Shown here one piece after another: positions 20,583-33,219 of a stretch of 39,929 nucleotides of DNA. The position numbers and the translations under genes were made by a program. The notes beneath the pieces are model-generated. The model saw only the letters and a list, made by a program, of their open reading frames with translations. It was not told the origin of the DNA and made no database searches. Numbering within the stretch: position 1 is the stretch's first letter; each line of letters begins with the position of its first letter. Source of the DNA: an uncultured Lentisphaeria bacterium (GTDB taxonomy: Bacteria > Verrucomicrobiota > Lentisphaeria > Victivallales > UBA1829); assembly GCA_949282305.1 (NCBI GenBank), contig CASDPB010000031.1:1-39929 (forward strand). Reading direction: 5' to 3'.

Positions 20583-21578
20583 TCAGAACTGCATCCACTC
20601 GATAAACTTCACATTGTTGTCCGAGGCGCCTGTCACATCGAAACGATCGAAGCTGAAAACCAGACGACGGGAAGGCCGTTCCGCTTTCTCCTGCGGACCG
20701 ATTGTCACGGTGTAAGTTCCGCTTTCAATCCAGGAAAGGTAGAAAAGAGAATTATACAGCAATGGATCAAGCTGATCACTGAGCATCGTCCGTTCCCTGA
20801 ACCAGACCTCCCGCGCAGCAATGACCTCTTCAATCTGCTCATCTTCCAGATTGCAGTAAATCTTCAGATGGAGCGGAGACGCCGTAAAGAAATCCGGGCT
20901 GCCGCCGGGGGCGCGCATCAGGCGAACCGTGCTCAGACGGCCGAACTTGTCAGGCGGAAACAAGACGGTGAAGTCTCTGATATAGAAGAATTCCTCGCGA
21001 AGAAGATGGATATTGGAGTTGCGCGGCAGAGGACTCATGTTTTCCGCTTCGTAATCCTCCACCTCCATGCCGTCAATGCCGATCTCATCGTCAGAGTCGT
21101 AATAGTCGGCAATCCGGGTGGCAAGCACTTCCAGCAGGTCAAGAATTTCGGTCTCCGTATCAATGGGGCTTCCCACCCGCTGAAGGGTGTTCCTGTAATT
21201 CCGCTCACTGAAATCCCATCCGGATCTGGCGTCCGTAATCGTGAACTGCACCGTGGTGCCATGATAATCCATCTCATGAATCACGCCGTCCGCCATGTAA
21301 CGGTCATGATCATATTCCGCGTAGTCAAGCACGCCCAGCATCCTGTTGGGGAAAAGATTCTGTTCCGCGGCAAGCAGCCATTGAATGCGGTTGCCCATTC
21401 CCTCATTGATGTAGGAAGACCGCTGCAGCTCCGTATGCGCATTGACATCGTATGTGGAGATCTGCGACAGAATCAGGACTGCGGCAGTCAGCATGCCGGC
21501 AATGAAAATCAGGCAGAGAGCCGCAATCAATGCGGAGCCCGATTCCGTTTTTTTTCTTCTGCAAATCCGCCGTTTCAT
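20583..21578 (-). CDS. gspK: GspK-like minor pseudopilin
   Basis: Last gene of the T2SS operon, 331 residues. GspK is the large minor pseudopilin at the pseudopilus tip. The N-terminus KTESGSALIAALCLIFIAGMLTA is a prepilin helix without Glu5, as is normal for GspK, and it is the only pilin-like protein here with Gly before the predicted cut. The body has an acidic region DDEIGIDGMEVEDYE and blocks such as FTVLFPPDKFGRLSTVRL. Similarity to characterised GspK is mainly in the N-terminus, size and operon position. It begins 7 bases after the gspJ stop. Confidence 0.72.
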   Translation of the reverse strand: MKRRICRRKKTESGSALIAALCLIFIAGMLTAAVLILSQISTYDVNAHTELQRSSYINEGMGNRIQWLLAAEQNLFPNRMLGVLDYAEYDHDRYMADGVIHEMDYHGTTVQFTITDARSGWDFSERNYRNTLQRVGSPIDTETEILDLLEVLATRIADYYDSDDEIGIDGMEVEDYEAENMSPLPRNSNIHLLREEFFYIRDFTVLFPPDKFGRLSTVRLMRAPGGSPDFFTASPLHLKIYCNLEDEQIEEVIAAREVWFRERTMLSDQLDPLLYNSLFYLSWIESGTYTVTIGPQEKAERPSRRLVFSFDRFDVTGASDNNVKFIEWMQF

Positions 21579-21585
21579 ATTTGCC

Positions 21586-22296
21586 TCAGATGGTCAGTTG
21601 CGTGTTTCTGGAATTTCCGGCAGTCCGGCGCAGCCAGATTTCTTTGCGTCCGTCGGTCCATTCCACAGTCATCTGCACTGCAATTGGAATCAGGAAAGTC
21701 CGTGTGCTGTTCGCAGTGGCGGAACGCGGGTTGCTGACGGAAACATTCAGTTCCAGATCCTCCTCCCAGGTATCGTTCCAGACCAGTTCATCATCCTCTT
21801 CAGACGCATAGAGAAAAGTGATTGAGCGTACCCGGTCAGCGAGCACTTCCCGGGAATAGGAGTTCAGTTCCGATTCCTCCTCATCCCACTGCAGACGCGG
21901 ATACTGGGAATATTCGGCAATCAGCTGTTCCTCTTCTACCTTCAGCCGAATGAAAATCAGCGCACCTTTGTCATGCCTGTATGCACGGCGCAGGGATACG
22001 AAATGAATATTGTCTGTTTCCCCTTTGAAAACAACGCGCTCCTGATCCAGAGTCTTGTCCGTCCAGGTAAACGGAATCATATTGCGCACGCAGTTATCCA
22101 TGATACGGTCGATCGCCTGGTAGGTTTTCAGACGGTCGCTGATGCGCACCGTTCTCTGCCAGGCATTGTAGAACGTCATGGAAGCCGTTGCAATAATCAG
22201 CGCGACAAAGATCATGATCGCCATCGCGACGATCATTTCCACAAGGGTGAAAAAACGCTTATTCTTCCTCATCCTCATCACCGATCGCCGATTCAT
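21586..22296 (-). CDS. gspJ: GspJ-like minor pseudopilin
   Basis: Protein of 236 residues. The prepilin signal KNKRFFTLVEMIVAMAIMIFVALIIA has Glu5 and Phe before the cut. The body (YQAIDRIMDNCVRNMIPFTW, then VRSITFLYASEEDDELVWNDTW) has the length and pattern of GspJ, which sits in the pseudopilus tip complex with I and K. The chosen start lies inside the end of gspI (38-base overlap) with AGGA in front; in-frame ATGs slightly downstream are possible. The order H-I-J-K matches the standard gsp operon. Confidence 0.8.
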   Translation of the reverse strand: MNRRSVMRMRKNKRFFTLVEMIVAMAIMIFVALIIATASMTFYNAWQRTVRISDRLKTYQAIDRIMDNCVRNMIPFTWTDKTLDQERVVFKGETDNIHFVSLRRAYRHDKGALIFIRLKVEEEQLIAEYSQYPRLQWDEEESELNSYSREVLADRVRSITFLYASEEDDELVWNDTWEEDLELNVSVSNPRSATANSTRTFLIPIAVQMTVEWTDGRKEIWLRRTAGNSRNTQLTI

Positions 22297-22681
22297 AACT
22301 GATCCTGTCTATTATAAGCTGATCGAGCAGTTCCCCGTCACGTTCCCGTTCCAGTTTGATCACCAGACAGGTCAGCGGAAGCTGACTGACCAGATCGCAG
22401 TATTCTTCCGGAACCTGCTCATCCTCCAGATCCTCATACGACGCAACGATGCGATACCCCTGATAAGGGAAGAACGCCTCCGGAATTCCTCCGGGTTCTT
22501 CATTCAGGAGCATGAAATACTCCGCCGCCTGCGCCAGCATGTGCATCCGTTCCCATTTCTCATAGCTGTTTGCAATTCTGCGCTGGGAAGAGGTCAGCAG
22601 AGTCAGAAGCCCGGTCAGGCTGAGACCGAGAATCGCAAGCGCAACCACGACTTCAATCAAGGTAAAACAAATTCTTCTCAT
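22259..22681 (-). CDS. gspI: GspI-like minor pseudopilin
   Basis: Protein of 140 residues. The very short leader MRRIC precedes FTLIEVVVALAILGLSLTGLLTLL, the typical pseudopilin I helix with Glu5; Cys stands where Gly is expected before the cut. The size fits GspI (about 125 residues). The tail is acidic (GDEDEEE). The start overlaps the gspH stop as ATGA, so translation is coupled. Confidence 0.82.
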   Translation of the reverse strand: MRRICFTLIEVVVALAILGLSLTGLLTLLTSSQRRIANSYEKWERMHMLAQAAEYFMLLNEEPGGIPEAFFPYQGYRIVASYEDLEDEQVPEEYCDLVSQLPLTCLVIKLERERDGELLDQLIIDRISYESAIGDEDEEE

Positions 22682-23238
22682 TCCTCTTCCTCCCCTTCGT
22701 TCTGGATCAGAAGCCCGGTCAGCGGGGAAATGTCGAAAACCTTACGGAGCGTCTGATAGCGCAGTTCAAATTTCAGACTGCCGGACGCACCGCCGTCGGG
22801 GAAAAAGCGGAACACCTCAAACGCTTCCTCCGCGGCTTCGCGTCCCTTGTCGGAAATCTCTGTTCCGAGCTCGAAATTCTCCGGCAGAGTCCACTCGACC
22901 GCGGCAAGTTTCAACTGTTTCTCCTCTTCTTCCTTCTCCTCTTCCTTTGTAGTCTGGAATTCCACGGGAATCTCCATCTTGAATGTGCGCGTTTCCGGAT
23001 AAAACATCACAACACGGTCCCCGCCGTTTTCCATTGCCTGGAAACGCGCCTTGGCACAGAACGCCTCGAACTGCAGTCCGGCGCTGTTCAACTGCTGAAC
23101 GGGAGACTCGCCGCGGAACGAAACCACGGCAAGAACAGTCGTCAGAGCAATGATCGCAATCGCAACCACGAGCTCCAGGAGGGTAAAATGACTCAAAACC
23201 GGAGTGTCTTCCCTCACGGGGAAATATTTTCTTCTCAT
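22678..23238 (-). CDS. gspH: GspH-like minor pseudopilin
   Basis: Protein of 186 residues. The prepilin signal VLSHFTLLELVVAIAIIALTTVLAVV comes after a leader of 17 residues, with Glu5 and His before the cut. The body has the GspH pattern (QLNSAGLQFEAFCAKARFQAMENG, then VVMFYPETRTFKM). A Glu/Lys-rich segment (TKEEEKEEEEKQ) and an acidic C-terminus are additions to the family pattern. It lies 87 bases after gspG, the largest gap between the gsp genes. Confidence 0.8.
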   Translation of the reverse strand: MRRKYFPVREDTPVLSHFTLLELVVAIAIIALTTVLAVVSFRGESPVQQLNSAGLQFEAFCAKARFQAMENGGDRVVMFYPETRTFKMEIPVEFQTTKEEEKEEEEKQLKLAAVEWTLPENFELGTEISDKGREAAEEAFEVFRFFPDGGASGSLKFELRYQTLRKVFDISPLTGLLIQNEGEEEE

Positions 23239-23325: not shown

Positions 23326-23757
23326 CTACTTGGTTTCTTCCCAGTTTGCAATATCGGCGTTCTCGCCTTCTCCGCCGGGCTGTCCGTCCGCACCGTAGCT
23401 CATCAGGTCAAATTCCCGGTGCTCGCCGGGAAAGACATAGATGTAGTCATTTCCCCACGGATCTTTCGGCACCGCGGGCTGGAGATAAGGACCGTTCCAT
23501 TTGGCATTCTGGTCGACATTCTCAACCAGAGCGCGAAGCCCCACAGTCGAATCCGGATAGCTGCCGACGTCAAGCCGGAAACCGGTCAGCGCCTCTTCCA
23601 GAAGTTTGATCTGGGTCTTGGCGGCGCCGACGTTCGCCTTCTTGACATAGTTCAGATACAGCGGCGTCGCAATAGACGCCAATGTGACCAGAATAATGAT
23701 CACGACGACGACTTCTATCAAGGTGAAGTCCGTTCTTTTCCATCTTTTTTTTCTCAT
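23326..23757 (-). CDS. gspG: Major pseudopilin GspG
   Basis: Main subunit of the periplasmic pseudopilus, 143 residues, the usual GspG length. The leader MRKKRWKRTD precedes FTLIEVVVVIIILVTLASIATPLYLNYVKKA. GspG signatures follow: AKTQIKLLEEALTGFRLDVGSYPDSTVGLRALVEN, GPYLQPAVPKDPWGNDYIYVFPG, and a C-terminal loop SYGADGQPGGEGENADIANWE resembling the calcium-binding loop. Asp, not Gly, precedes the predicted cut. The start overlaps the gspF stop as ATGA. Confidence 0.95.
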   Translation of the reverse strand: MRKKRWKRTDFTLIEVVVVIIILVTLASIATPLYLNYVKKANVGAAKTQIKLLEEALTGFRLDVGSYPDSTVGLRALVENVDQNAKWNGPYLQPAVPKDPWGNDYIYVFPGEHREFDLMSYGADGQPGGEGENADIANWEETK

Positions 23758-24971
23758 ATTTTGGGTCCTCCCTGGCTTATTGAATTGATTTCCATCATTG
23801 CTACGAAAATAGACACCACAACCACCAGAACTACAAGTGCCAGAAACACAATTACCGCCGGTTCAAACAAACTCAGCAGTCTTTTGATCTTCAGGCGCGT
23901 GTCGCTCTCCAGATGTGTTGCAATGCGCGACAGCATCTCGCCGACCGTTCCCGACTCCTCGCCGACCCGCAGCATCGGCACCATTCCGGACGGAACAAAC
24001 CGGTTATCCGCCAGTGCCGCGGAAAGTTTGGCTCCTCCTTTCAATTTACGCGCAATATCAGCAAACGCCTTGGCGATCACGGGGTTGTGTATAATTCTCC
24101 CGGAGATTTTCACCGTCCGGATGATTTCAACATGGTTCGCGATCAGAATGGAAAGCGTGCGGATGTATTTGCACATTTCCAGATCAACGATAATTCTGCC
24201 GAACAACGGCAGGGAAAGCAGAAATCTGCTGTAATTGTAATGAAACGCCTCCGCTCCGAAAAAACGCTTCAGACCGGTCCATATTCCAACTGCGGCGCAG
24301 GGGATCACCCACCATGCCCACGATGCAAAGGAACTCAGACCGAGCAGGAAATTCATCGAAGGCGGCATTTCGCGCCCCATGTCCAGGAAGATTTTCGCAA
24401 AACGCGGCACGAACACCGTAAACAGGAGAATGGTCACAATCAGCGTAATCGAGAGAATCGCCAGCGGATAAATCGAACTTGAAATGATAAAATCCTTGAG
24501 TTCCTTGCTCTCCCCCATGAACTTGTAGAGCTGTCCGACGACTTCCGGAAGGCATCCGGTCTCTTCGCCGCTCTCAATCAGATTCGCATAATAACCGGGG
24601 AAAAGCGAGCCGTGGGAACGCACCAGTTCCGAAAACTTCTTTCCTTCATGAAGCCCCTGCCGGAGCGAATTGACAAAATCACGCTGTTCCGGTTCGACCG
24701 CGCTTTCGGCAATGATCCCAAGCGCTTTTTCCAGCGGAATAAACGAGTCAAGAAGCGGCGCGAGCTGGCGCGTGAAGTCGTAGGTGTCAATTTTGGAACG
24801 GCGGAACATCAGTCTTCCGCCGCCTCCAACCGACACCTCTCCGTAAAAACGGACGGGGATGACATGGCGGCTGCGCAGCTTGTTCAACGCCTCCTTCTCG
24901 TTGTCTGCCTCGATCAGCATGTCATGGGGCTGCTCGCCCTTCGCCGCCGCCAGATATTTGTAAAGCGCCAT
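23754..24971 (-). CDS. gspF: T2SS inner-membrane platform protein GspF
   Basis: Polytopic protein of 405 residues. It has two copies of the T2SSF cytoplasmic domain: FTRQLAPLLDSFIPLEKAL with ESGEETGCLPEV in the first, and YIRTLSILIANHVEIIRTV with VGEESGTVGEMLSRIA in the second. Membrane segments are SIYPLAILSITLIVTILLF near 170-190, WAWWVIPCAAVGIW near 220 and PAVIVFLALVVLVVVVSIF near the end. GspF links the GspE ATPase to the pseudopilus. It begins 15 bases after gspE. Confidence 0.95.
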   Translation of the reverse strand: MALYKYLAAAKGEQPHDMLIEADNEKEALNKLRSRHVIPVRFYGEVSVGGGGRLMFRRSKIDTYDFTRQLAPLLDSFIPLEKALGIIAESAVEPEQRDFVNSLRQGLHEGKKFSELVRSHGSLFPGYYANLIESGEETGCLPEVVGQLYKFMGESKELKDFIISSSIYPLAILSITLIVTILLFTVFVPRFAKIFLDMGREMPPSMNFLLGLSSFASWAWWVIPCAAVGIWTGLKRFFGAEAFHYNYSRFLLSLPLFGRIIVDLEMCKYIRTLSILIANHVEIIRTVKISGRIIHNPVIAKAFADIARKLKGGAKLSAALADNRFVPSGMVPMLRVGEESGTVGEMLSRIATHLESDTRLKIKRLLSLFEPAVIVFLALVVLVVVVSIFVAMMEINSISQGGPKI

Positions 24972-24986
24972 GAAACAGTCTCCGCG

Positions 24987-26576
24987 TTACAGCTCCGCGG
25001 TGGAGCGGCTGAGCTCCTCCGCCGTCGTGATTCCCGCCGCAACCTTTGCCGCGCCGTCCTGCTGAAGCGTCACCATACCGTGTTTCACCGCAATCTCCTC
25101 CAGTTCGGAACTCGAAGCGTTGCGGTTTACCGCCATGCGCAGGTCGTCATCCAGAAACAGCAGCTCGAAAATGCCGGAGCGCCCCTTGAAACCGCTTCCG
25201 TTGCAGCGGCGGCACTTCACGCCGTGCGCGTCTGTTCCGCTGCCATGACACGCGGTGCAGATCTTGCGGACGAGACGCTGCGACAAGACGCCATACAACG
25301 CTGACGAAACCAGAAAGTTTTCCACCCCCATATCCAGCAGACGAGTCACCGCGCCGACCGCGTCGTTGGTGTGGAGCGTGCTCAGAACCAGATGTCCCGT
25401 AAGCGCGGCATTGATCGCAATATCCGCAGTCTCGCGGTCGCGGATTTCACCGACAAGAATGATGTCCGGGTCCTGACGGACGATGCTGCGGAGCCCGTTG
25501 GCGAAGGTCACGCCGATTTTCGCATTCACCTGCATCTGGCAGAGCCCCGGCATCTTGTATTCCACCGGGTCTTCGACCGTGATGATCTTTTTCCGATTGT
25601 CGTTGAGCTGGCTGATCACGCTGTAAAGAGTCGTGGTCTTGCCGCTTCCGGTCGGGCCGACGACCAGAATCATGCCGTGGGGAATGCTGATAAGACGCCG
25701 GAACTGCGCCAGATGCTCCGGAGACATGCCAAGCGTCTTAAGGTCGAACGTGATTGCGTCCTGATTCAGCAGACGCAGAACAATGCTTTCCCCGGTCAGG
25801 ATCGGAATCGTGCTGATACGCATATCCAGCTCTGCACGGCCGAGCTGCACATTGGTCCGCCCGTCCTGCGGCAGACGGCTTTCCGCAATATTGAGACCGC
25901 CCAGAAGTTTGATGCGGGATGCAATCGCCGGAAACTGATTCAGCGGACAGCTGATGATCTCCGTCAGCACGCCGTCCACGCGACAGCGGACCGCCACATG
26001 ATCCTCGCCGGGTTCAATGTGAATATCGCTGGCGCCCAGTTCAATCGCCTGCGTGAAAATATCATTCACAAGACGCACGATCCTCGCTTCGCCTGCCATC
26101 GTGCGGAGGGCGTTCTCATCGTCCACATCGACCGCCGTCTCCTCCTCTTCCTTCTCCATGCTCTGCGCCTTGCTGAGCATCCGCTCCAGAAAAGTCCGGC
26201 GGACAAAACGGAATTCCGCCTTCAGCTTCCAGCTTTTCCTGACCAGAAAGGAAAGCTGGTCGAGTTCATAGGGATCCACCACGAGAAAAGTAATGGAATC
26301 CTCCTCCCACTCATAAGGAAGACACGCATTCGCATTGAAGAAGTCCAGCGGGGCATTGGGGAATGCCTCCGGCTGACGGATTTCATCCTCGGGCAGCACA
26401 GGCACGCCGTATGCCTCCGAATAGAGGGCGATCAGCTCCGCTTCCGTCGCCCTGGACGACTGAACCAGTGCGCGGTCCCCGTCTCTGGTAGGTGCCGGAG
26501 AATCGGGAAATTTAGCCGCATAGAGCGCTTTGAGACGCTCGCGCGGCGACTGTTTCAACTGCTCAGAAGAGGTCAT
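24987..26576 (-). CDS. gspE: T2SS assembly ATPase GspE
   Basis: Cytoplasmic motor of 529 residues. An N-terminal GspL-binding type domain (about 40-140) precedes the core. VVGPTGSGKTT is the Walker A motif (K313), and QDPDIILVGEIRDRETADIA the Walker B and adjacent Asp/His box region. The zinc-binding four-cysteine motif C440-x2-C443-x11-C455-x2-C458 is present, as in most GspE and PilB proteins. SLSTLHTNDA-type residues (VLSTLHTNDAVGAV) complete the family set. The start codon lies 14 bases inside the end of gspD. Confidence 0.96.
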   Translation of the reverse strand: MTSSEQLKQSPRERLKALYAAKFPDSPAPTRDGDRALVQSSRATEAELIALYSEAYGVPVLPEDEIRQPEAFPNAPLDFFNANACLPYEWEEDSITFLVVDPYELDQLSFLVRKSWKLKAEFRFVRRTFLERMLSKAQSMEKEEEETAVDVDDENALRTMAGEARIVRLVNDIFTQAIELGASDIHIEPGEDHVAVRCRVDGVLTEIISCPLNQFPAIASRIKLLGGLNIAESRLPQDGRTNVQLGRAELDMRISTIPILTGESIVLRLLNQDAITFDLKTLGMSPEHLAQFRRLISIPHGMILVVGPTGSGKTTTLYSVISQLNDNRKKIITVEDPVEYKMPGLCQMQVNAKIGVTFANGLRSIVRQDPDIILVGEIRDRETADIAINAALTGHLVLSTLHTNDAVGAVTRLLDMGVENFLVSSALYGVLSQRLVRKICTACHGSGTDAHGVKCRRCNGSGFKGRSGIFELLFLDDDLRMAVNRNASSSELEEIAVKHGMVTLQQDGAAKVAAGITTAEELSRSTAEL

Positions 26577-28950
26577 TGGACCAGACCTCCTTCGTTGTCA
26601 TCACACGCGGTTTCGCCTGGAACACACCATTGTTCCCGGAAAGACTTTCGTCGAAATCATTCAGAGCCTTCAGCGCATCATTGTAACGGTCAATCAGTTC
26701 TTCGACCTTGTTACGTTCATTGACAATGTATCCGGTTACAAGGACCAGAATTTCAGAACGTTTCGTCGAGGCATCCGTGGAACCGATCAGCCGTCTCAGC
26801 ACGGGAATCTGATTAATGATCGGCACGGAATCCAGACTGTCGTTCTTTTCTTCCTGAATCAAACCGCCAAGTATCATTGTCTTGCCGTTCGCGATTGTCA
26901 TGTTCGTGATAATGCTCCGGTTATTGAGATTCGGATTGGGATTCCCCGAGGAGGAATTGGCATAGTCAACACTTTTGAGTTCCTGTTCCACTTCCAGTGA
27001 AATCAGGTCGTTGCTTGTAATCTGCGGGGTGACGGTAAGGGTTATGCCGGTGTCCTCATATTGATATGTATTGGTCATATTGCCATCCGAAGAGGTATTG
27101 GTAATGGATCCGGTAATCACGGAGATCTGCGTGCCCACATTGATTTTCGCCTCGGTGTGGCTGGACACAAGCAGCTGAGGGCTGGATATGACTTTTACGT
27201 TTCCATTTCCGGCAAGAGCACGGATATAGGCGAATTTGTTGTTCGGATTGTCCGGGTCGGAGAGGAAATAGGTAAAACCTGTTTCCCGGGTCGTCGTGGT
27301 GGTCGTCTCACCGGTCGTCTCGTCTGTTGTCGTGGTGGTGGAGGGCGGAGTCAGATTGGAATAGTTGGTTCCGATCAAAGAGTTGGTCTTTCCGGAATAG
27401 GAACCGGAAAGTTCCAGTCCGAACTGAGTCGATTCCGACAGTGTGACCTCCACGACAAGCACCTGCAGAAGCACCTGTGCGGGAACCACATCCAGACGGT
27501 TGATCAAAGCCTTGATGGAGGCATACGTCCTCGGAGTCGTACGGATGACGAGGCGGTTCAGAACCCCGTCCGCAAAGACGCGGACAGGAGTGTTGAACAC
27601 ATTGGAATTCCGGTCAGTCAAAGTATTCTCCGTGCTGTTGATGTCAATTTGCCCGTTTCTGTTTCGATTGTTGGTGTTGCGGTTGCGGTTTGTCTGGGTG
27701 GAGCTGACCGTTTCCATCTTCGTATTGCCCGTCGTGGTGTCGATCGTAAGACTGGACCCCTGAATGTCATAAATCACCGACAGCGCCTGCGCCAGCTGGG
27801 ATGCCTTGTTATGGCGGACCTTGTAGACAAAAACCCGTTCCTGATCCAGTGAATTTGAACTGTCGAGCAGGTCCACCCACTGTTCGATCTCCTGTATCGC
27901 CTCATCCGTCGCGGCGGACACCATCAGAATGTGCAGACGGTCCAGTCCGCTGATCTGAACGGAACCGGGGGTCTCCGTCTTGTCCGTCAGCTGCTGGACA
28001 TTGAATCCGAGGACAGGAAGAATGGTCTTGAGCTCGTCCGTCAATTTGCTGGGCAGGATATTGGAACAAAGGAGTATTTTGCGTTTCCAGCTGTTTTTCC
28101 CGCTCATGTCAATCACATCAAGAAGCTGTTTGATTTTCGGCATGTTCGCACGGTCATCCGCAATCATGACCGCATTCGGACGGGTCAGTTCCACGCAGAC
28201 GGCATTGTTTCCGACGAACGGCCTGATCTGGTTGACAACCTCTTTCGCAGTCGTATTTTTCAGCGGATAATAAAACAGTTCTCCGGTGCCGTCTTTCGCC
28301 AGACGGGAATCCGCCTGCTGCGCCACTTTCGGCAGCGCCATGATCCGCAGCAGCGTTCCCTCCACCGTGACGCCCGCTCCGGCAAGATTCAACATTTTGT
28401 CAAACGTATTCCAGAGTTCACGGCGCGTCATCTTCTGGTCAATATTCAGCGTCACGACTCCCTTGAGGTCGCTGTCCGCAAGGAAATTGAAGCCGAGCGC
28501 ATCCGCAAAAGAGGGAATCACATCCAGCAGTGGCGCACTGTTGAACACGAGATTGACAGTGACCTCCTCGTCACCGTTCAGAATGATGAAATCGTCGTAA
28601 AAATGAAGCGGCTCCCTGGCTTTCTCCGGCTTGGGCGTCAGAGCCGTCACCGGAATCTTTTCCGTTTTGCTTTTCAGACTCGTTGGAAGCTCCTTGTCGG
28701 AATCCGTCTTGACCAGCTCATCGTCAATGGATTCCGTACTCTTTGTCTCTTTCGGAACCTCCCTCATTTCACTCTTCAGAAATGCAAAGCGGTCCGCCTT
28801 CCCCGGTTCCTCCTTCTCGGTTCCGTCCGAACTGATCTCCTCCATATCCTTCTTGATATGGGAACAGGATTGCAGAAAAACCACGGACAGCGAGAGCAGC
28901 AGGATGCGGAGAAAACGGTGCAGCTTTTGTTTTTGCGGAAAATAAGCCAT
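26563..28950 (-). CDS. gspD: T2SS outer-membrane secretin GspD
   Basis: Protein of 795 residues forming the outer-membrane channel. The signal peptide ends in a possible lipobox with C29 (FLQSC), so it may be a lipoprotein. A charged linker precedes the N0 domain (NLVFNSAPLLDVIPSFADALGF-like, about 130-200) and N1-N3 domains (FYYPLKNTTAKEVVNQIRPFVG, VFVYKVRHNKASQLAQAL). The secretin core includes ISSPQLLVSSHTEAKINVGTQI and MILGGLIQEEKNDSLDSVPI. An Asn/Arg-rich stretch near 418-432 lies in N3, and a Thr-rich stretch near 535-555 lies in the core, both longer than usual. It has 37 bases to the upstream GspC-like gene. Confidence 0.95.
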   Translation of the reverse strand: MAYFPQKQKLHRFLRILLLSLSVVFLQSCSHIKKDMEEISSDGTEKEEPGKADRFAFLKSEMREVPKETKSTESIDDELVKTDSDKELPTSLKSKTEKIPVTALTPKPEKAREPLHFYDDFIILNGDEEVTVNLVFNSAPLLDVIPSFADALGFNFLADSDLKGVVTLNIDQKMTRRELWNTFDKMLNLAGAGVTVEGTLLRIMALPKVAQQADSRLAKDGTGELFYYPLKNTTAKEVVNQIRPFVGNNAVCVELTRPNAVMIADDRANMPKIKQLLDVIDMSGKNSWKRKILLCSNILPSKLTDELKTILPVLGFNVQQLTDKTETPGSVQISGLDRLHILMVSAATDEAIQEIEQWVDLLDSSNSLDQERVFVYKVRHNKASQLAQALSVIYDIQGSSLTIDTTTGNTKMETVSSTQTNRNRNTNNRNRNGQIDINSTENTLTDRNSNVFNTPVRVFADGVLNRLVIRTTPRTYASIKALINRLDVVPAQVLLQVLVVEVTLSESTQFGLELSGSYSGKTNSLIGTNYSNLTPPSTTTTTDETTGETTTTTTRETGFTYFLSDPDNPNNKFAYIRALAGNGNVKVISSPQLLVSSHTEAKINVGTQISVITGSITNTSSDGNMTNTYQYEDTGITLTVTPQITSNDLISLEVEQELKSVDYANSSSGNPNPNLNNRSIITNMTIANGKTMILGGLIQEEKNDSLDSVPIINQIPVLRRLIGSTDASTKRSEILVLVTGYIVNERNKVEELIDRYNDALKALNDFDESLSGNNGVFQAKPRVMTTKEVWSNDLF

Positions 28951-28987: not shown

Positions 28988-29947
28988 CTATCGACGTCCG
29001 CGGTTGCGGTTCGTGTTGCTGCGCATGTTGCTGCTGCGGTTCTGCTGAGGCGGATTCTGATTCTGCTGCATCATGCGCATCATCTGCATGTTCTGGAACA
29101 TCTGCATGCGTTGCATGTTCTGAAGCGTCCGAAGCATCTGGGTGCCGGTATTGCCCCGCCGTCTGTTGCTACGGCGGGCGTTCTGCGGTGCATTCTTGGA
29201 GGCGTCCAGCAGTTCAAGCTCCAGCTTGTCACTGCCGCGCGTCAGAAGCACGCTGTCCCGGTTCACTTCGACCAGTTTGTACCCGTTGCTGAGAGTTTCA
29301 CCGAGACGCACATACTGCTTGTATGTCACCTGATTATTTGCCGTGGCAGCCGTCACGTTTGTTCCGATTGCCGGCATTTTCCCGCGGATGCCGCGCACCA
29401 TTCCGCCGTTCCTGCTGTTCCGGAAATTCCTGCCGGACGACTGCGGCACACCGCCCGCCATCTGACCGCCGGGGTGCCCTCCGCCGGGATGTCCCCCGTC
29501 CGGACGCCCGCCGCCGTTCTGGTTCCTGCTGCCGATTCCCATTTGACGTCCCCCCGGCATCCCGGGCATGAAGGGCATAAAACGGTTGTTGTTATTGTTG
29601 TTCCCGGACGCTTTCTGCTTGATGATGGCGCCGACGCAGTCTCCGATCTTGAAAGTTCCGACAAGCGAGAGTTCGACGCGCGTATTTCTGCCGGGGGTGG
29701 CTGCATTCGGACAGCGGTCGGAATTGAAGATATTGGCTTCGAGGATTTTCGCAAGCTGTTCTTTCGGAGTCATCTCTTTCTGAACCGCGGCAGTTTTCGG
29801 CGACGCCGCGGTTTCTTTCTTCTGAGATGCGGGACGTTTCTTCACGGTATACACCGTCTTTGAAGAAGCCGGTTTGAAATGCGACGCAATCCCCCAGACA
29901 AGCATCGAAGCAAGGAAGACATTGAACAGAATCAGAAGTCCCTTCAT
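28988..29947 (-). CDS. gspC: GspC-like inner-membrane protein with low-complexity insertion
   Basis: Protein of 319 residues with an N-terminal membrane helix (about 3-20) and a Lys/Ala/Pro linker. The start of a GspC homology region, ILEANIFNSDRC then RVELSLVGTFKIGDCVGAII (68-109), and its end, VRLGETLSNGYKLVEVNRDSVLLTRGSDKLELELL (213-247), are separated by about 95 residues rich in Gly, Asn, Pro, Met and Arg. A second Met/Gln/Asn/Arg-rich tail runs from about 255 to 319. GspC links the inner-membrane platform to the secretin, and the position just before gspD fits. There is no PDZ or coiled-coil C-terminus. The assignment rests on context and the split HR pattern. Confidence 0.6.
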   Translation of the reverse strand: MKGLLILFNVFLASMLVWGIASHFKPASSKTVYTVKKRPASQKKETAASPKTAAVQKEMTPKEQLAKILEANIFNSDRCPNAATPGRNTRVELSLVGTFKIGDCVGAIIKQKASGNNNNNNRFMPFMPGMPGGRQMGIGSRNQNGGGRPDGGHPGGGHPGGQMAGGVPQSSGRNFRNSRNGGMVRGIRGKMPAIGTNVTAATANNQVTYKQYVRLGETLSNGYKLVEVNRDSVLLTRGSDKLELELLDASKNAPQNARRSNRRRGNTGTQMLRTLQNMQRMQMFQNMQMMRMMQQNQNPPQQNRSSNMRSNTNRNRGRR

Positions 29948-30624
29948 CTCTTTCCCCCCGTCTGCGATGTTGTTTTTACAAGCGCCCCCGTCTTGGGGGG
30001 CAATTCCCCGTCGAAGGCAATGACGCGGATTGTGCCATTGAACGTGAGATTGGTCTGAACGGAAGTGTCAACCGCCGTATTCGTCACGACTTTCGTATTC
30101 TGCTGCGGAGGACGGAACATCAGATTTGCCGTGATGCGCCGCCACGCCAGCCGCGGTTTGATCTCCTGGATTTTCGCAATGAACAGCATCAGATTTTCAA
30201 ACGGCGCGCTGGTCGAAATATCAAGTTCCGCAAAATAAAGGTCATCATTGATCCGCGATGTCCTGACGGAGCCCAGATTGTTCAGACTGAGTTCCGATTC
30301 CTTCGCCGCGGTTTCGACCTTCTGCCGCAGCAGGAGTTCCGGATCGCCGTCCCGTTCAAACTGCCAGCTGTTCTCTATCATGGCACGGTACTTCCGGCGA
30401 AGATCCTCCATCTCCTTGAGTTTCTTCTGCTGAACAAGCTGTTCCGACTCGAATTTCTTAATTTCCCTGCGCAGTCCTTCCTTGCGTCCCTCGTCGGGAA
30501 ACCAGGAGGAGAAACTGCCGCTGAGCTGTGTCAAAAGAAAAATCCAGCTGATAAGAAGCGCACAACACGCCACAGTCAGCTTGCCTTTTCCCGTTTTCAG
30601 AAACTCTTTGAACTTTGCGTTCAT
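29944..30624 (-). CDS. gspM: GspM/PilO-like inner-membrane protein
   Basis: Bitopic protein of 226 residues. A short cytoplasmic tail is followed by a membrane helix (LTVACCALLISWIFLLTQL, about 16-34), a coiled coil (EGLRREIKKFESEQLVQQKKLKEMEDLRRKY), and a ferredoxin-like domain (SSV-type LYFAELDISTSAPFENLMLFIAKIQEI). This is the architecture of GspM and PilO. It overlaps gspL and the GspC-like gene by 4 bases each, as ATGA. The expected role is to pair with GspL in the inner-membrane platform. Confidence 0.72.
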   Translation of the reverse strand: MNAKFKEFLKTGKGKLTVACCALLISWIFLLTQLSGSFSSWFPDEGRKEGLRREIKKFESEQLVQQKKLKEMEDLRRKYRAMIENSWQFERDGDPELLLRQKVETAAKESELSLNNLGSVRTSRINDDLYFAELDISTSAPFENLMLFIAKIQEIKPRLAWRRITANLMFRPPQQNTKVVTNTAVDTSVQTNLTFNGTIRVIAFDGELPPKTGALVKTTSQTGGKR

Positions 30625-31850
30625 TCCTCACCCTCCACCGAAACCAGTTTCAGCGTAATCACGCTTGCCGCATCATTGTTCCGGCGGCGCTGCTGAATCT
30701 GTTCTACCTTCCACGTCTTGAGCGGGCGAAGTATTTCCGGGATATTCAGGCTCTCCGCTTCGCTGCGCATCGTAAAGTCAACACCGCCGTCCGACAGACG
30801 GAAATTCGTCACCAGCACATTGCCGGGCAGAACGGTGGAAAAACCCGCCAGTTTGCCGATCACATCATATTCTCCCGGAGACTGACTGACAACGCGGGAA
30901 AGTTCCCGCAGTTCCTTTTCCGCCGATTTCAGCTTCCGTTGTGCGGTTGTCACCTGGGTACGCAGACGGTTCCGCGTGGCGACAAGAGAAGAATACTCCC
31001 TATGATGCCCGGAAAGCTGTCCGGCAAGTCCCCAGCCGAAATTGATCAGCAGCAGAACAATCAGCAGGGCGGTCAACCTCAGCTGATTGCGAAGACGGCT
31101 CGGACGGAGCTGTTTCGGCAGGATGTTCAGCCCCCCGAACGTATGCCTGGTATCGTCCGCTACGGCAAGACGCGCCGTCAGCAGACACCCCAGCCATTCG
31201 GCGGGATTGAAACCGTAATCCTCCGGCAGAATGAACTCCCTGCGCAACGTCTTGTCCCAGAAGGAAAACCAGTCCGTGGGAAGTTCCTCCGCGGAATGCC
31301 ATTCCCCGTCGGCAAAGTAGAAATCGGGTTCCGCCTCCGGCAGAAAGACCGGTCCGTCGGACTCGCGCAGGGCAAGAAGCGGATAAATAAAGTAATCGGC
31401 TTTTCTGCCGCTCTGGGTAATCATCGCAGCGAGATTTTCCAAGTCCGTCGCAGGAAAGGTGTAGACATTCACCTGCACATTCTCCCCCTCCCCTGCGAGC
31501 TCCACGAATTCCAGTTCATAATTTCCGGTCGTCTGCTGCAGAAGTCTCTGCGGCAGTTCAAATTCCAGCGCATCACGCATCGCCTTGGGCGGAAGCCTGA
31601 CACTGCCGCAGCGGAAAAAGGTTCCGCCCTTGAGAGCACCGGAAATCATCAGCGGGCAGACCCGGCTGTAGCCGACCTTGTGAAGCACCTGTTTCCAGGC
31701 TTTTGCGGGATCGGTTCCGTCATGCGCCTCGGAAGCATACGCTTTCAGGCGAACCCCCTTTGAGTCCCGCCGGAACAGACAGCATCTGACATGATCCGGG
31801 GAAAACAGAAGAACGGCAAACTCTTTTATTTTGGAAAATCTCATATTCAT
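30621..31850 (-). CDS. gspL: GspL-like inner-membrane protein
   Basis: Protein of 409 residues. The N-terminal 255 residues look like a reduced actin-like (PilM/GspL) cytoplasmic domain (LPPKAMRDALEFELPQRLL, DYFIYPLLAL). A membrane helix LTALLIVLLLINFGWGLAG lies near 262-282. A coiled coil follows (RNRLRTQVTTAQRKLKSAEKELRELSRV), then a ferredoxin-like periplasmic domain (LPGNVLVTNFRLSDGGVDFTM). GspL recruits GspE to the membrane. The start has no clear ribosome site; two in-frame ATGs (31850, 31844) are possible. It follows the repeat protein by 13 bases. Confidence 0.72.
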   Translation of the reverse strand: MNMRFSKIKEFAVLLFSPDHVRCCLFRRDSKGVRLKAYASEAHDGTDPAKAWKQVLHKVGYSRVCPLMISGALKGGTFFRCGSVRLPPKAMRDALEFELPQRLLQQTTGNYELEFVELAGEGENVQVNVYTFPATDLENLAAMITQSGRKADYFIYPLLALRESDGPVFLPEAEPDFYFADGEWHSAEELPTDWFSFWDKTLRREFILPEDYGFNPAEWLGCLLTARLAVADDTRHTFGGLNILPKQLRPSRLRNQLRLTALLIVLLLINFGWGLAGQLSGHHREYSSLVATRNRLRTQVTTAQRKLKSAEKELRELSRVVSQSPGEYDVIGKLAGFSTVLPGNVLVTNFRLSDGGVDFTMRSEAESLNIPEILRPLKTWKVEQIQQRRRNNDAASVITLKLVSVEGEE

Positions 31851-31863
31851 TAGATCAAACCGC

Positions 31864-32754
31864 TTACCGCCCCGGCGTGTTTTTCCGTTCCTCTTCCTCG
31901 GATTTCTTCAACAGCGCCATAACGCCGTCACGATACCCGTCGGGGTCTTCCCGGCGAAGAGCGTCCAGTTTCTTCATCTCCTCCGGATATTTCCTGCGGA
32001 GTTCCATAATCCGGCGCATCGGATTCACCCGGCTGCTCCGGGCTGGAACGGCATCTCCGTTCTCAATGGAGCCCAGCCTTCCGCCGCGTCCGGTTTCCGG
32101 CATTTCGATCCCGGCTTTCGTCATCAGCTCCCGGGTCTTTTCAAACGCCGCACGCGGATTGGACGCCCTGAGCTTTTCAATCTCCTCGAACTCGGCCTTG
32201 AACTTGCCGGAAATCTTCAGTTCTTCCAGTTTGAGGCGGATCGACTCCGCAGTCGCAGGCAGTTTCACATTCGCCTTTTTCGCCAGTTCCTCCAGCTTGT
32301 TTTCCACAGCCATACGCTGTTTTTCGATTTCCGCGTATTCCGCCGGATATTTCGCCTTCAGCTCGGCCTCCACAGAAGCACGGGGATTTCTCATGCCTCC
32401 CGGTATTCCCATTCCGCCGCCCGGCATACCGCCCCGGGGACCCATGGCACCATGACGCCCGCCCCGGTTTCCGCGCGAGGAACCGGGAAGTGTCACAGAG
32501 GCTTCCGAGGCGAGCTCACGCATCTTTTCCAAAGCGGCAAACAGATTGGTCGCCTGGAGCTTTTCAATCTCCTTGTACTTTTCCGGATATTTTTTCTTGA
32601 GCTCCGCCTGCGCTTCTGCCCATTCAGCCAGATTGCTCTGCCGTTCCCGACCGTCTCCGCCGCGCTGTGAATGCCGCCATCCGGGTCCTTGCGCGGATAG
32701 CATTCCACATGTAAAAACAAATACCGCGACTGCCAGTATGGTTGTTCTTTTCAT
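31864..32754 (-). CDS. Exported four-repeat protein heading the T2SS operon
   Basis: I do not recognise a named family. The protein has 296 residues and a signal peptide (1-21, ending LSAQ). It holds four degenerate repeats of about 40 residues at 51-90, 131-166, 178-219 and 251-288. Each starts ELKxKYPxEYxEIEKL or similar, continues with a helical LEKMRELAxxA part, and the first three end in a short V/I-x-LP or MP. The repeats are separated by linkers; the linker at 91-125 is rich in Gly, Arg, Met and Pro. The repeats look like paired amphipathic helices. The chosen ATG has CAGGAG in front and gives a clean signal peptide, whereas upstream in-frame starts do not. It is first in the operon, 13 bases before gspL, suggesting a periplasmic T2SS accessory role. 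Confidence 0.7.
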   Translation of the reverse strand: MKRTTILAVAVFVFTCGMLSAQGPGWRHSQRGGDGRERQSNLAEWAEAQAELKKKYPEKYKEIEKLQATNLFAALEKMRELASEASVTLPGSSRGNRGGRHGAMGPRGGMPGGGMGIPGGMRNPRASVEAELKAKYPAEYAEIEKQRMAVENKLEELAKKANVKLPATAESIRLKLEELKISGKFKAEFEEIEKLRASNPRAAFEKTRELMTKAGIEMPETGRGGRLGSIENGDAVPARSSRVNPMRRIMELRRKYPEEMKKLDALRREDPDGYRDGVMALLKKSEEEERKNTPGR

Positions 32755-33219
32755 GAAAACTCCTGAAGGATTTAATTTCTCTTTGCCAGCCCATTTTCCT
32801 TCTAAACGTAACAACACTGCCATTTATTGTGCAAAATTCAAGGGCAAATTATTTTTTTTCCGGATTTTTACGGCAGGCAGAGGGCTGATTTTGCAGGAAA
32901 ACGGGAAGAAAGGGCTGAAAAAATCAAAAAAACGAATTCTCGCCGTTTCCTCCGCTGGCTTCGGTGCTCCCGGTCCGGTGTTCCGGTTTCCCCGTTTGCT
33001 GCGGCATTTCCGCCGTTTCACGATACGGTCGGTGGAAGGCCGGCACAAGGCGGCGGGCTCTTCCCCGTTTCCCGTCCTGCCGTCCGCCTTTTCTGAAAAT
33101 CATTGCTATGCAATGAAATCATGATACGGGGAATCCCGCTTGACATATTGGAAAAATGAAGATAATGTAAAAACGTGACAGAGTGAATTTTATTTGGGAA
33201 AGCAGAAGGTTGACATATT
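32755..33219. other. Divergent intergenic region between the T2SS operon and topA
   Basis: 465 bases between divergent starts. The right end holds the topA promoter. A perfect CATTGC-TAT-GCAATG inverted repeat (33101-33115) just upstream could be an operator. I found no convincing sigma70 promoter for the T2SS operon on the minus strand and no RNA gene. Confidence 0.45.
33140..33168 (+). promoter_or_regulatory. Candidate topA promoter
   Basis: A perfect TTGACA (33140-33145) is followed by GATAAT (33161-33166) at 15 bases or TAATGT (33163-33168) at 17 bases. The leader is about 45 bases. TTGACATATT recurs exactly at 33210-33219, directly before the ATG. The ribosome site is AGAAGG (33204-33209). 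Confidence 0.5.

Follow-up and report, generated by a model that had tools for sequence, protein, structure and literature searches.

The P4R gene and the operon it heads

The window, that is the whole analysed stretch of 39,929 nucleotides, contains a 12-gene T2SS operon in the order P4R-L-M-C-D-E-F-G-H-I-J-K, all on the minus strand. Its first gene, a 296-codon open reading frame, codes for an exported protein of 296 aa that we designate P4R; the coordinates and first place in a 12-gene T2SS operon proposed in an earlier sequence-only reading of this DNA were confirmed. The neighbours of P4R are gspL downstream, 13 nt from the P4R stop codon, and topA upstream on the opposite strand in divergent orientation.

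31864..32754, minus strand: P4R gene, four-module helical repeat protein of 296 aa, head of the T2SS operon, orthologues found
32760..32764, minus strand: Shine-Dalgarno-like AGGAG 5' of the P4R start codon, from the sequence
32692..32754, minus strand: P4R signal peptide, residues 1-21, from the sequence and an alignment of 22 orthologues, with no conserved lipobox Cys
30621..31850, minus strand: divergent gspL, profile matches PilM (PDB 2ych, E 1.8e-5)
29944..30624, minus strand: divergent gspM, 4-nt overlap with gspL, relatives match T2SSM_b/T2SSM below cut-off
28988..29947, minus strand: gspC with a long Gly/Met/Arg-rich insert (PF11356, E 9e-8)
26563..28950, minus strand: gspD secretin, N-terminal lipobox LQSC (PF00263; TIGR02517 at E 4.6e-100, slightly under cut-off)
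24987..26576, minus strand: gspE (PF00437)
23754..24971, minus strand: gspF (PF00482)
23326..23757, minus strand: gspG-like major pseudopilin, N-methylation motif FTLIEVVVVIIILV
22678..23238, minus strand: gspH-like pseudopilin, from domain search and position
22259..22681, minus strand: gspI-like pseudopilin, from sequence and position
21586..22296, minus strand: gspJ-like pseudopilin, from PF07963 and position
20583..21578, minus strand: gspK-like, pseudopilin-type, from a weak T2SSK_1st match and position

The best start codon of P4R is at 32754, preceded by AGGAG; a promoter scan 5' of the gene was uninformative, and P4R is present as one copy in its own genome. P4R carries an export signal (MKRTTILAVAVFVFTCGMLSA followed by Q, cleavage between ...MLSA and QG), which was judged by eye, and ORF starts were set by rule. 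With this signal peptide the expectation of a periplasmic or secreted protein holds. A further membrane segment or anchor was not apparent by eye. The mature protein has a pI of 9.7 and a net charge of +12, its modules being K/E-rich and its linkers basic.

The window's own GspL and GspM gave no gsp family match in Pfam; relatives of GspL match GspL_C/PilN. No GspA/B/S gene was seen in this T2SS operon. GspC (28988-29947) carries its Gly/Met/Arg/Asn-rich insert within the HR region and has a Met/Gln/Asn-rich tail. The secretin GspD (26563-28950), with its LQSC lipobox, looks like a self-piloting lipo-secretin, and a simple pattern identified a GspD lipobox in 40 of 52 loci (more by eye), one genus being without it. 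Since GspD carries its own lipobox, it probably pilots itself.

Modules, linkers and predicted structure of P4R

P4R is composed of four homologous modules of ~45 aa, linked by the Gly/Arg/Met-rich segments that the sequence-only reading had described.

32485..32631, minus strand: repeat R1, residues 42-90, absent from several three-repeat orthologues
32389..32484, minus strand: linker 1, Gly/Arg/Met-rich, residues 91-122, with a pI of about 12, modelled as disordered
32257..32388, minus strand: repeat R2, residues 123-166, most conserved of the four repeats
32098..32250, minus strand: repeat R3, residues 169-219, from self-alignment, repeat profiles and the AlphaFold2 model
32026..32097, minus strand: linker 2, Gly/Arg-rich, residues 220-243, low model confidence
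31888..32025, minus strand: repeat R4, residues 244-289, the part of P4R closest to single-module relatives

Compared with composition-preserving shuffles, the repeat pairs reached z values of 2.6 to 12.9, most pairs lying far above the shuffles and the weakest, R3-R4, giving p about 0.02, and the top self-alignment score was 127 versus a shuffled maximum of 73. Profiles derived from the orthologues matched in every pair of repeats (E 1.9e-9 to 1.9e-17); the repeats thus persist in profile alignment, and the vanishing that would have spoken against the earlier reading did not occur. R1 and R2 close in LP and R3 in MP and R4 is without such an ending, just as the earlier reading had it. Residues E139, L157, A158, K160 and P166 of R2 are invariant in the P4R orthologue alignment (A1).

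In the AlphaFold2 model of P4R (21 sequences; mean pLDDT 77.9, pTM 0.41), each repeat forms three short helices, the last two of which are fused in R2, with helix breaks first at the Pro conserved in KYP, then at a (D/N)P or N turn. The four degenerate helical repeats proposed earlier are therefore significant by shuffling and profile comparison and are also seen in the model. Most repeat residues have pLDDT >90 and the linkers <50 (disordered), and the helices of R2-R3 modelled by themselves were the same as in the full model. Because the pTM is low, the mutual arrangement of the repeats is not fixed by the model. P4R and its orthologues consist of three to four homologous helical modules, joined by linkers that are flexible and for the most part basic.

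Relative to three congeners, dN of the repeat codons was 0.11-0.17 with omega about 0.05-0.10 (rough values, as dS is near saturation), and dN was 0.59-0.68 for the linkers, 0.19-0.20 for GspL and 0.17-0.18 for GspM. The modules are under purifying selection and within the genus change no faster than GspL/GspM, with the linkers changing fast; linker 1 is also greatly lengthened in one related genus. R1 is missing in some orthologues and linkers of >150 residues occur in others (one genus), so that the modules are kept and the linkers are free to vary. Orthologues of 200 aa with short linkers are common. One genus of the family has additional unlinked P4R paralogues (L170 3079-4131; also L171, L172, L078 and L079), some with very long Gly-rich linkers.

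P4R gave nothing above cut-off in Pfam and NCBIfam and nothing significant among PDB sequences, either with the single sequence or with a profile. With Foldseek, neither the whole model nor R2-R3 had a match at E <= 0.001, and VIA-align on the few fold candidates gave Z of 3.0 or less, which speaks neither for a new fold nor against a known one. The Metal_resist/Spy-like family PF13801 scored 17.2 bits on P4R, below its cut-off of 29.2, and matched 3 of 22 orthologues at E up to 1. We also considered PF20849 (TelK_muzzle), weak matches to which occur in 13 of 22 orthologues, and on which the orthologue at L104 (5857-6618) scores 29.3 versus a cut-off of 27. TelK is a phage protelomerase located in the cytoplasm, unlike the exported P4R, hence we regard this as coincidence, probably a chance match of helix composition. 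Our literature search found no paper on P4R or on T2SS accessory genes of Victivallales. P4R is a previously undescribed helical-repeat protein, predicted to be periplasmic.

Linkage to gspL and relatives of the module

Orthologues of P4R were found across its own family and a second family of Victivallales, and in a phylum-wide sample strong matches were restricted to these two families. In the 56 distinct P4R-gspL pairs both genes lie on the same strand with a median gap of 17.5 nt, 45 pairs being separated by <=40 nt and 16 abutting or overlapping. The order P4R, gspL, gspM, gspC, gspD, gspE is kept to the contig limit in the loci of named genomes except L108, where the P4R copy is an unlinked paralogue close to the contig end. 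When 77 GspL sequences were placed in a maximum-likelihood tree, all P4R-headed operons formed one clade (support 100/99), and P4R is absent from 20 of the 20 labelled operons outside it. Within the clade a single entry, L106, was marked as having no P4R; it coincides with L135, which does have P4R, as a long ORF that overlaps gspL by >60 nt. In other Victivallales families and in four genera of the second family the T2SS operon starts at gspL without P4R.

The P4R gene is fixed at the operon head in one T2SS clade, and as far as sampled its linkage to gspL arose once. Since the linkage is a single evolutionary event, it is its persistence over a divergent clade (GspL identity <30% at the edges) that counts as evidence and not the number of loci. 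Loss or separation of linked P4R with the T2SS retained was not seen in the 56 loci with very divergent GspL, a count limited by MAG sampling, as these are mostly metagenome assemblies whose contigs break at Gly-rich linkers. The absence from, or unlinking from, T2SS operons of relatives that would have spoken against the sequence-only reading hence did not occur within the P4R clade. Conservation of the position before gspL stood for this clade but not for the order, whose sister T2SS lineages are without P4R, and for this reason we consider P4R an accessory specific to its lineage rather than a general component of the T2SS. The secretion-linked role that had been argued from the tight spacing to gspL is strongly supported by this linkage conserved in 56 loci of one clade.

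Low-complexity residues in GspC numbered at least 53 in 40 of 40 P4R-linked loci and at most 52 in 14 of 16 others, with the P4R loci all belonging to one clade; linker length in P4R and in GspC was uncorrelated (rho -0.09). The position directly before gspL is taken in another family by a different exported protein, Arg/Gly-rich and Spy-like (L064 210-719); as a relative of P4R it is unconvincing (hhalign E 2e-4, probability 46%).

The P4R module occurs also in other exported proteins beyond the linked clade. Distant relatives (alignments A7 and A8) are single-module periplasmic proteins, and with an alignment of nine such exported proteins 104 out of 241 genomes from the phylum gave matches; no Pfam model covers those that are ECF-linked. 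In 21 of the 30 relative loci read, a same-strand ECF sigma gene lies at most 1.4 kb upstream, and 16 of these loci also have a zinc-finger anti-sigma-like gene. Outside Victivallales the ECF sigma gene was upstream in 19 of 19 loci, mostly with a zinc-finger anti-sigma gene between.

L188-L213: ECF-linked relatives outside the order, phylum-wide, periplasmic and helical

Comparison with hhalign gave 8e-13 for A1-A7 and 6e-9 for A1-A8, versus 0.03 or worse for reversed or block-shuffled controls. The helix-P-helix-(D/N)P-helix module is common to both groups, as is a signal peptide. The ECF-linked relatives usually have one module and a long C-terminal helix and are encoded with ECF sigma/anti-sigma genes, whereas P4R combines three to four modules with Gly/Arg/Met linkers, lacks a C-terminal coil and lies in a T2SS context. 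As only short charged helices carry this similarity, common descent is likely, not certain. With moderate confidence we derive the P4R module from a periplasmic protein that had one module and was encoded beside an ECF sigma/anti-sigma pair, an arrangement of the envelope-stress type. Two genomes in which a P4R-linked T2SS was not found, L153 (3208-3711) and L154 (2872-3399), code for lipoprotein-like proteins that are rich in Cys and carry one or two modules.

Possible roles of P4R in secretion

P4R probably serves secretion as a dedicated helper. Our preferred reading, to which as a whole we assign a probability of roughly 0.4, is that it is a dedicated, lineage-specific T2SS accessory of Victivallales, a periplasmic ATP-independent chaperone or adaptor whose module is of ECF-linked descent. 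P4R might act in this way in the periplasm, and we prefer such an activity since its modules are small, helical, multiple and carried on flexible basic arms, and since its closest relatives lie in seemingly envelope-stress operons, Spy being the best-understood chaperone of that kind. Spy is a small helical, periplasmic and ATP-independent chaperone that has a basic client surface and is induced by envelope stress (PMC8144458). Like P4R, the proteins of the Spy/CpxP/CnrX group (PF13801/PF07813) are small, helical and exported, but P4R has no significant sequence match to Spy/CpxP or any chaperone, and neither its whole model nor R2-R3 gave a usable fold match, be it to the four-helix cradle dimer of the Spy type or to another chaperone, and with Pfam below cut-off and no fold match we do not claim it as a member of the Spy family. 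CnrX also functions with an ECF sigma factor. Since the ECF-linked relatives are without known function, their context is no proof of chaperone activity.

We propose, more tentatively still, that P4R represents a new T2SS component family, in which an ECF-linked, envelope-stress-type module was recruited once and multiplied into a multivalent, flexible-armed dedicated chaperone or adaptor. The module of such a periplasmic protein would have been duplicated and recruited a single time to the head of the Victivallales T2SS operon. On the preferred reading, the helical modules, each a weak binder carried on a flexible basic arm, would together hold exoproteins, pseudopilins or the periplasmic portions of GspC/L/M and would keep them competent for delivery to the machine or for its assembly, and the operon-head position may set the dose of P4R jointly with the assembly platform.

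The main rival to a chaperone or adaptor, although we think it rather unlikely, is a scaffold on peptidoglycan, an analogue of GspB/OutB tying the secretin or the assembly platform to the wall by its polyampholyte modules and basic linkers. There is a precedent, as the T2SS scaffold OutB binds peptidoglycan via a polyampholyte C-terminal extension, the periplasmic part of some GspB proteins is polyampholyte only, and GspB/OutB resembles P4R in being a periplasmic T2SS accessory of restricted distribution with polyampholyte segments (PMC9239104). The K/E-rich modules, the basic linkers and an operon without a visible GspA/B/S gene fit such a role. However, P4R shows no evident membrane anchor beyond its signal peptide and no sequence relation to GspB/OutB, and in Pfam neither a known peptidoglycan-binding domain nor a T2SSC-like HR domain was found in P4R, the latter being absent also from the families listed for its orthologues.

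It is improbable that P4R is an operon hitchhiker, the gene of an unrelated envelope protein captured once before gspL and staying for the promoter. The single origin of the linkage would suit this, as would the unlinked repeat proteins retained in some T2SS-less genomes (L077, L153, L154), from which it follows that the module has uses beyond the T2SS; the lack of loss or separation across very divergent GspL speaks against it, within the limits of MAG sampling. We give about as little credit to P4R as a substrate that the T2SS itself carries out, e.g. a surface or matrix protein whose operon place would serve co-expression: the signal peptide and the Gly-rich linkers of >150 residues in one genus, like those of some surface proteins, would agree with it, but the short-linkered orthologues are common, the modules are about as constrained as machine proteins, and linked P4R was never seen apart from the operon within the clade. 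Less credible again is a sensor of envelope stress or secretion load that still senses, as its ECF relatives presumably do, and signals the load on the T2SS to a regulator. The ECF sigma genes ahead of all sampled single-module relatives outside the order support it, whereas no sigma/anti-sigma gene was seen beside the T2SS-linked P4R genes (in the window the neighbours are gspL and topA), and the architecture now has several modules and has lost the C-terminal helix. Pilotins are lipoproteins, and the suggestion of the sequence-only reading that P4R is a pilotin-like factor targeting the secretin to the outer membrane is very improbable, since P4R, although like GspS/AspS an exported T2SS accessory protein encoded in the operon, shows no conserved lipobox Cys where the signal peptide would be cleaved, as judged from 22 orthologues, and GspD, itself a predicted lipoprotein here, has its own N-terminal lipobox in most loci.

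The known T2SS accessory factors GspA, GspB, GspN and GspS have been defined mostly in proteobacteria. Victivallales are gut bacteria with the cultured genus Victivallis, and a well-conserved extra component in this order suggests that the T2SS outside the usual models has unrecognised parts. P4R suggests one origin for such parts, namely the recruitment of an envelope-stress-type periplasmic protein, and as a P4R orthologue exists in Victivallis, its role is in principle genetically testable.
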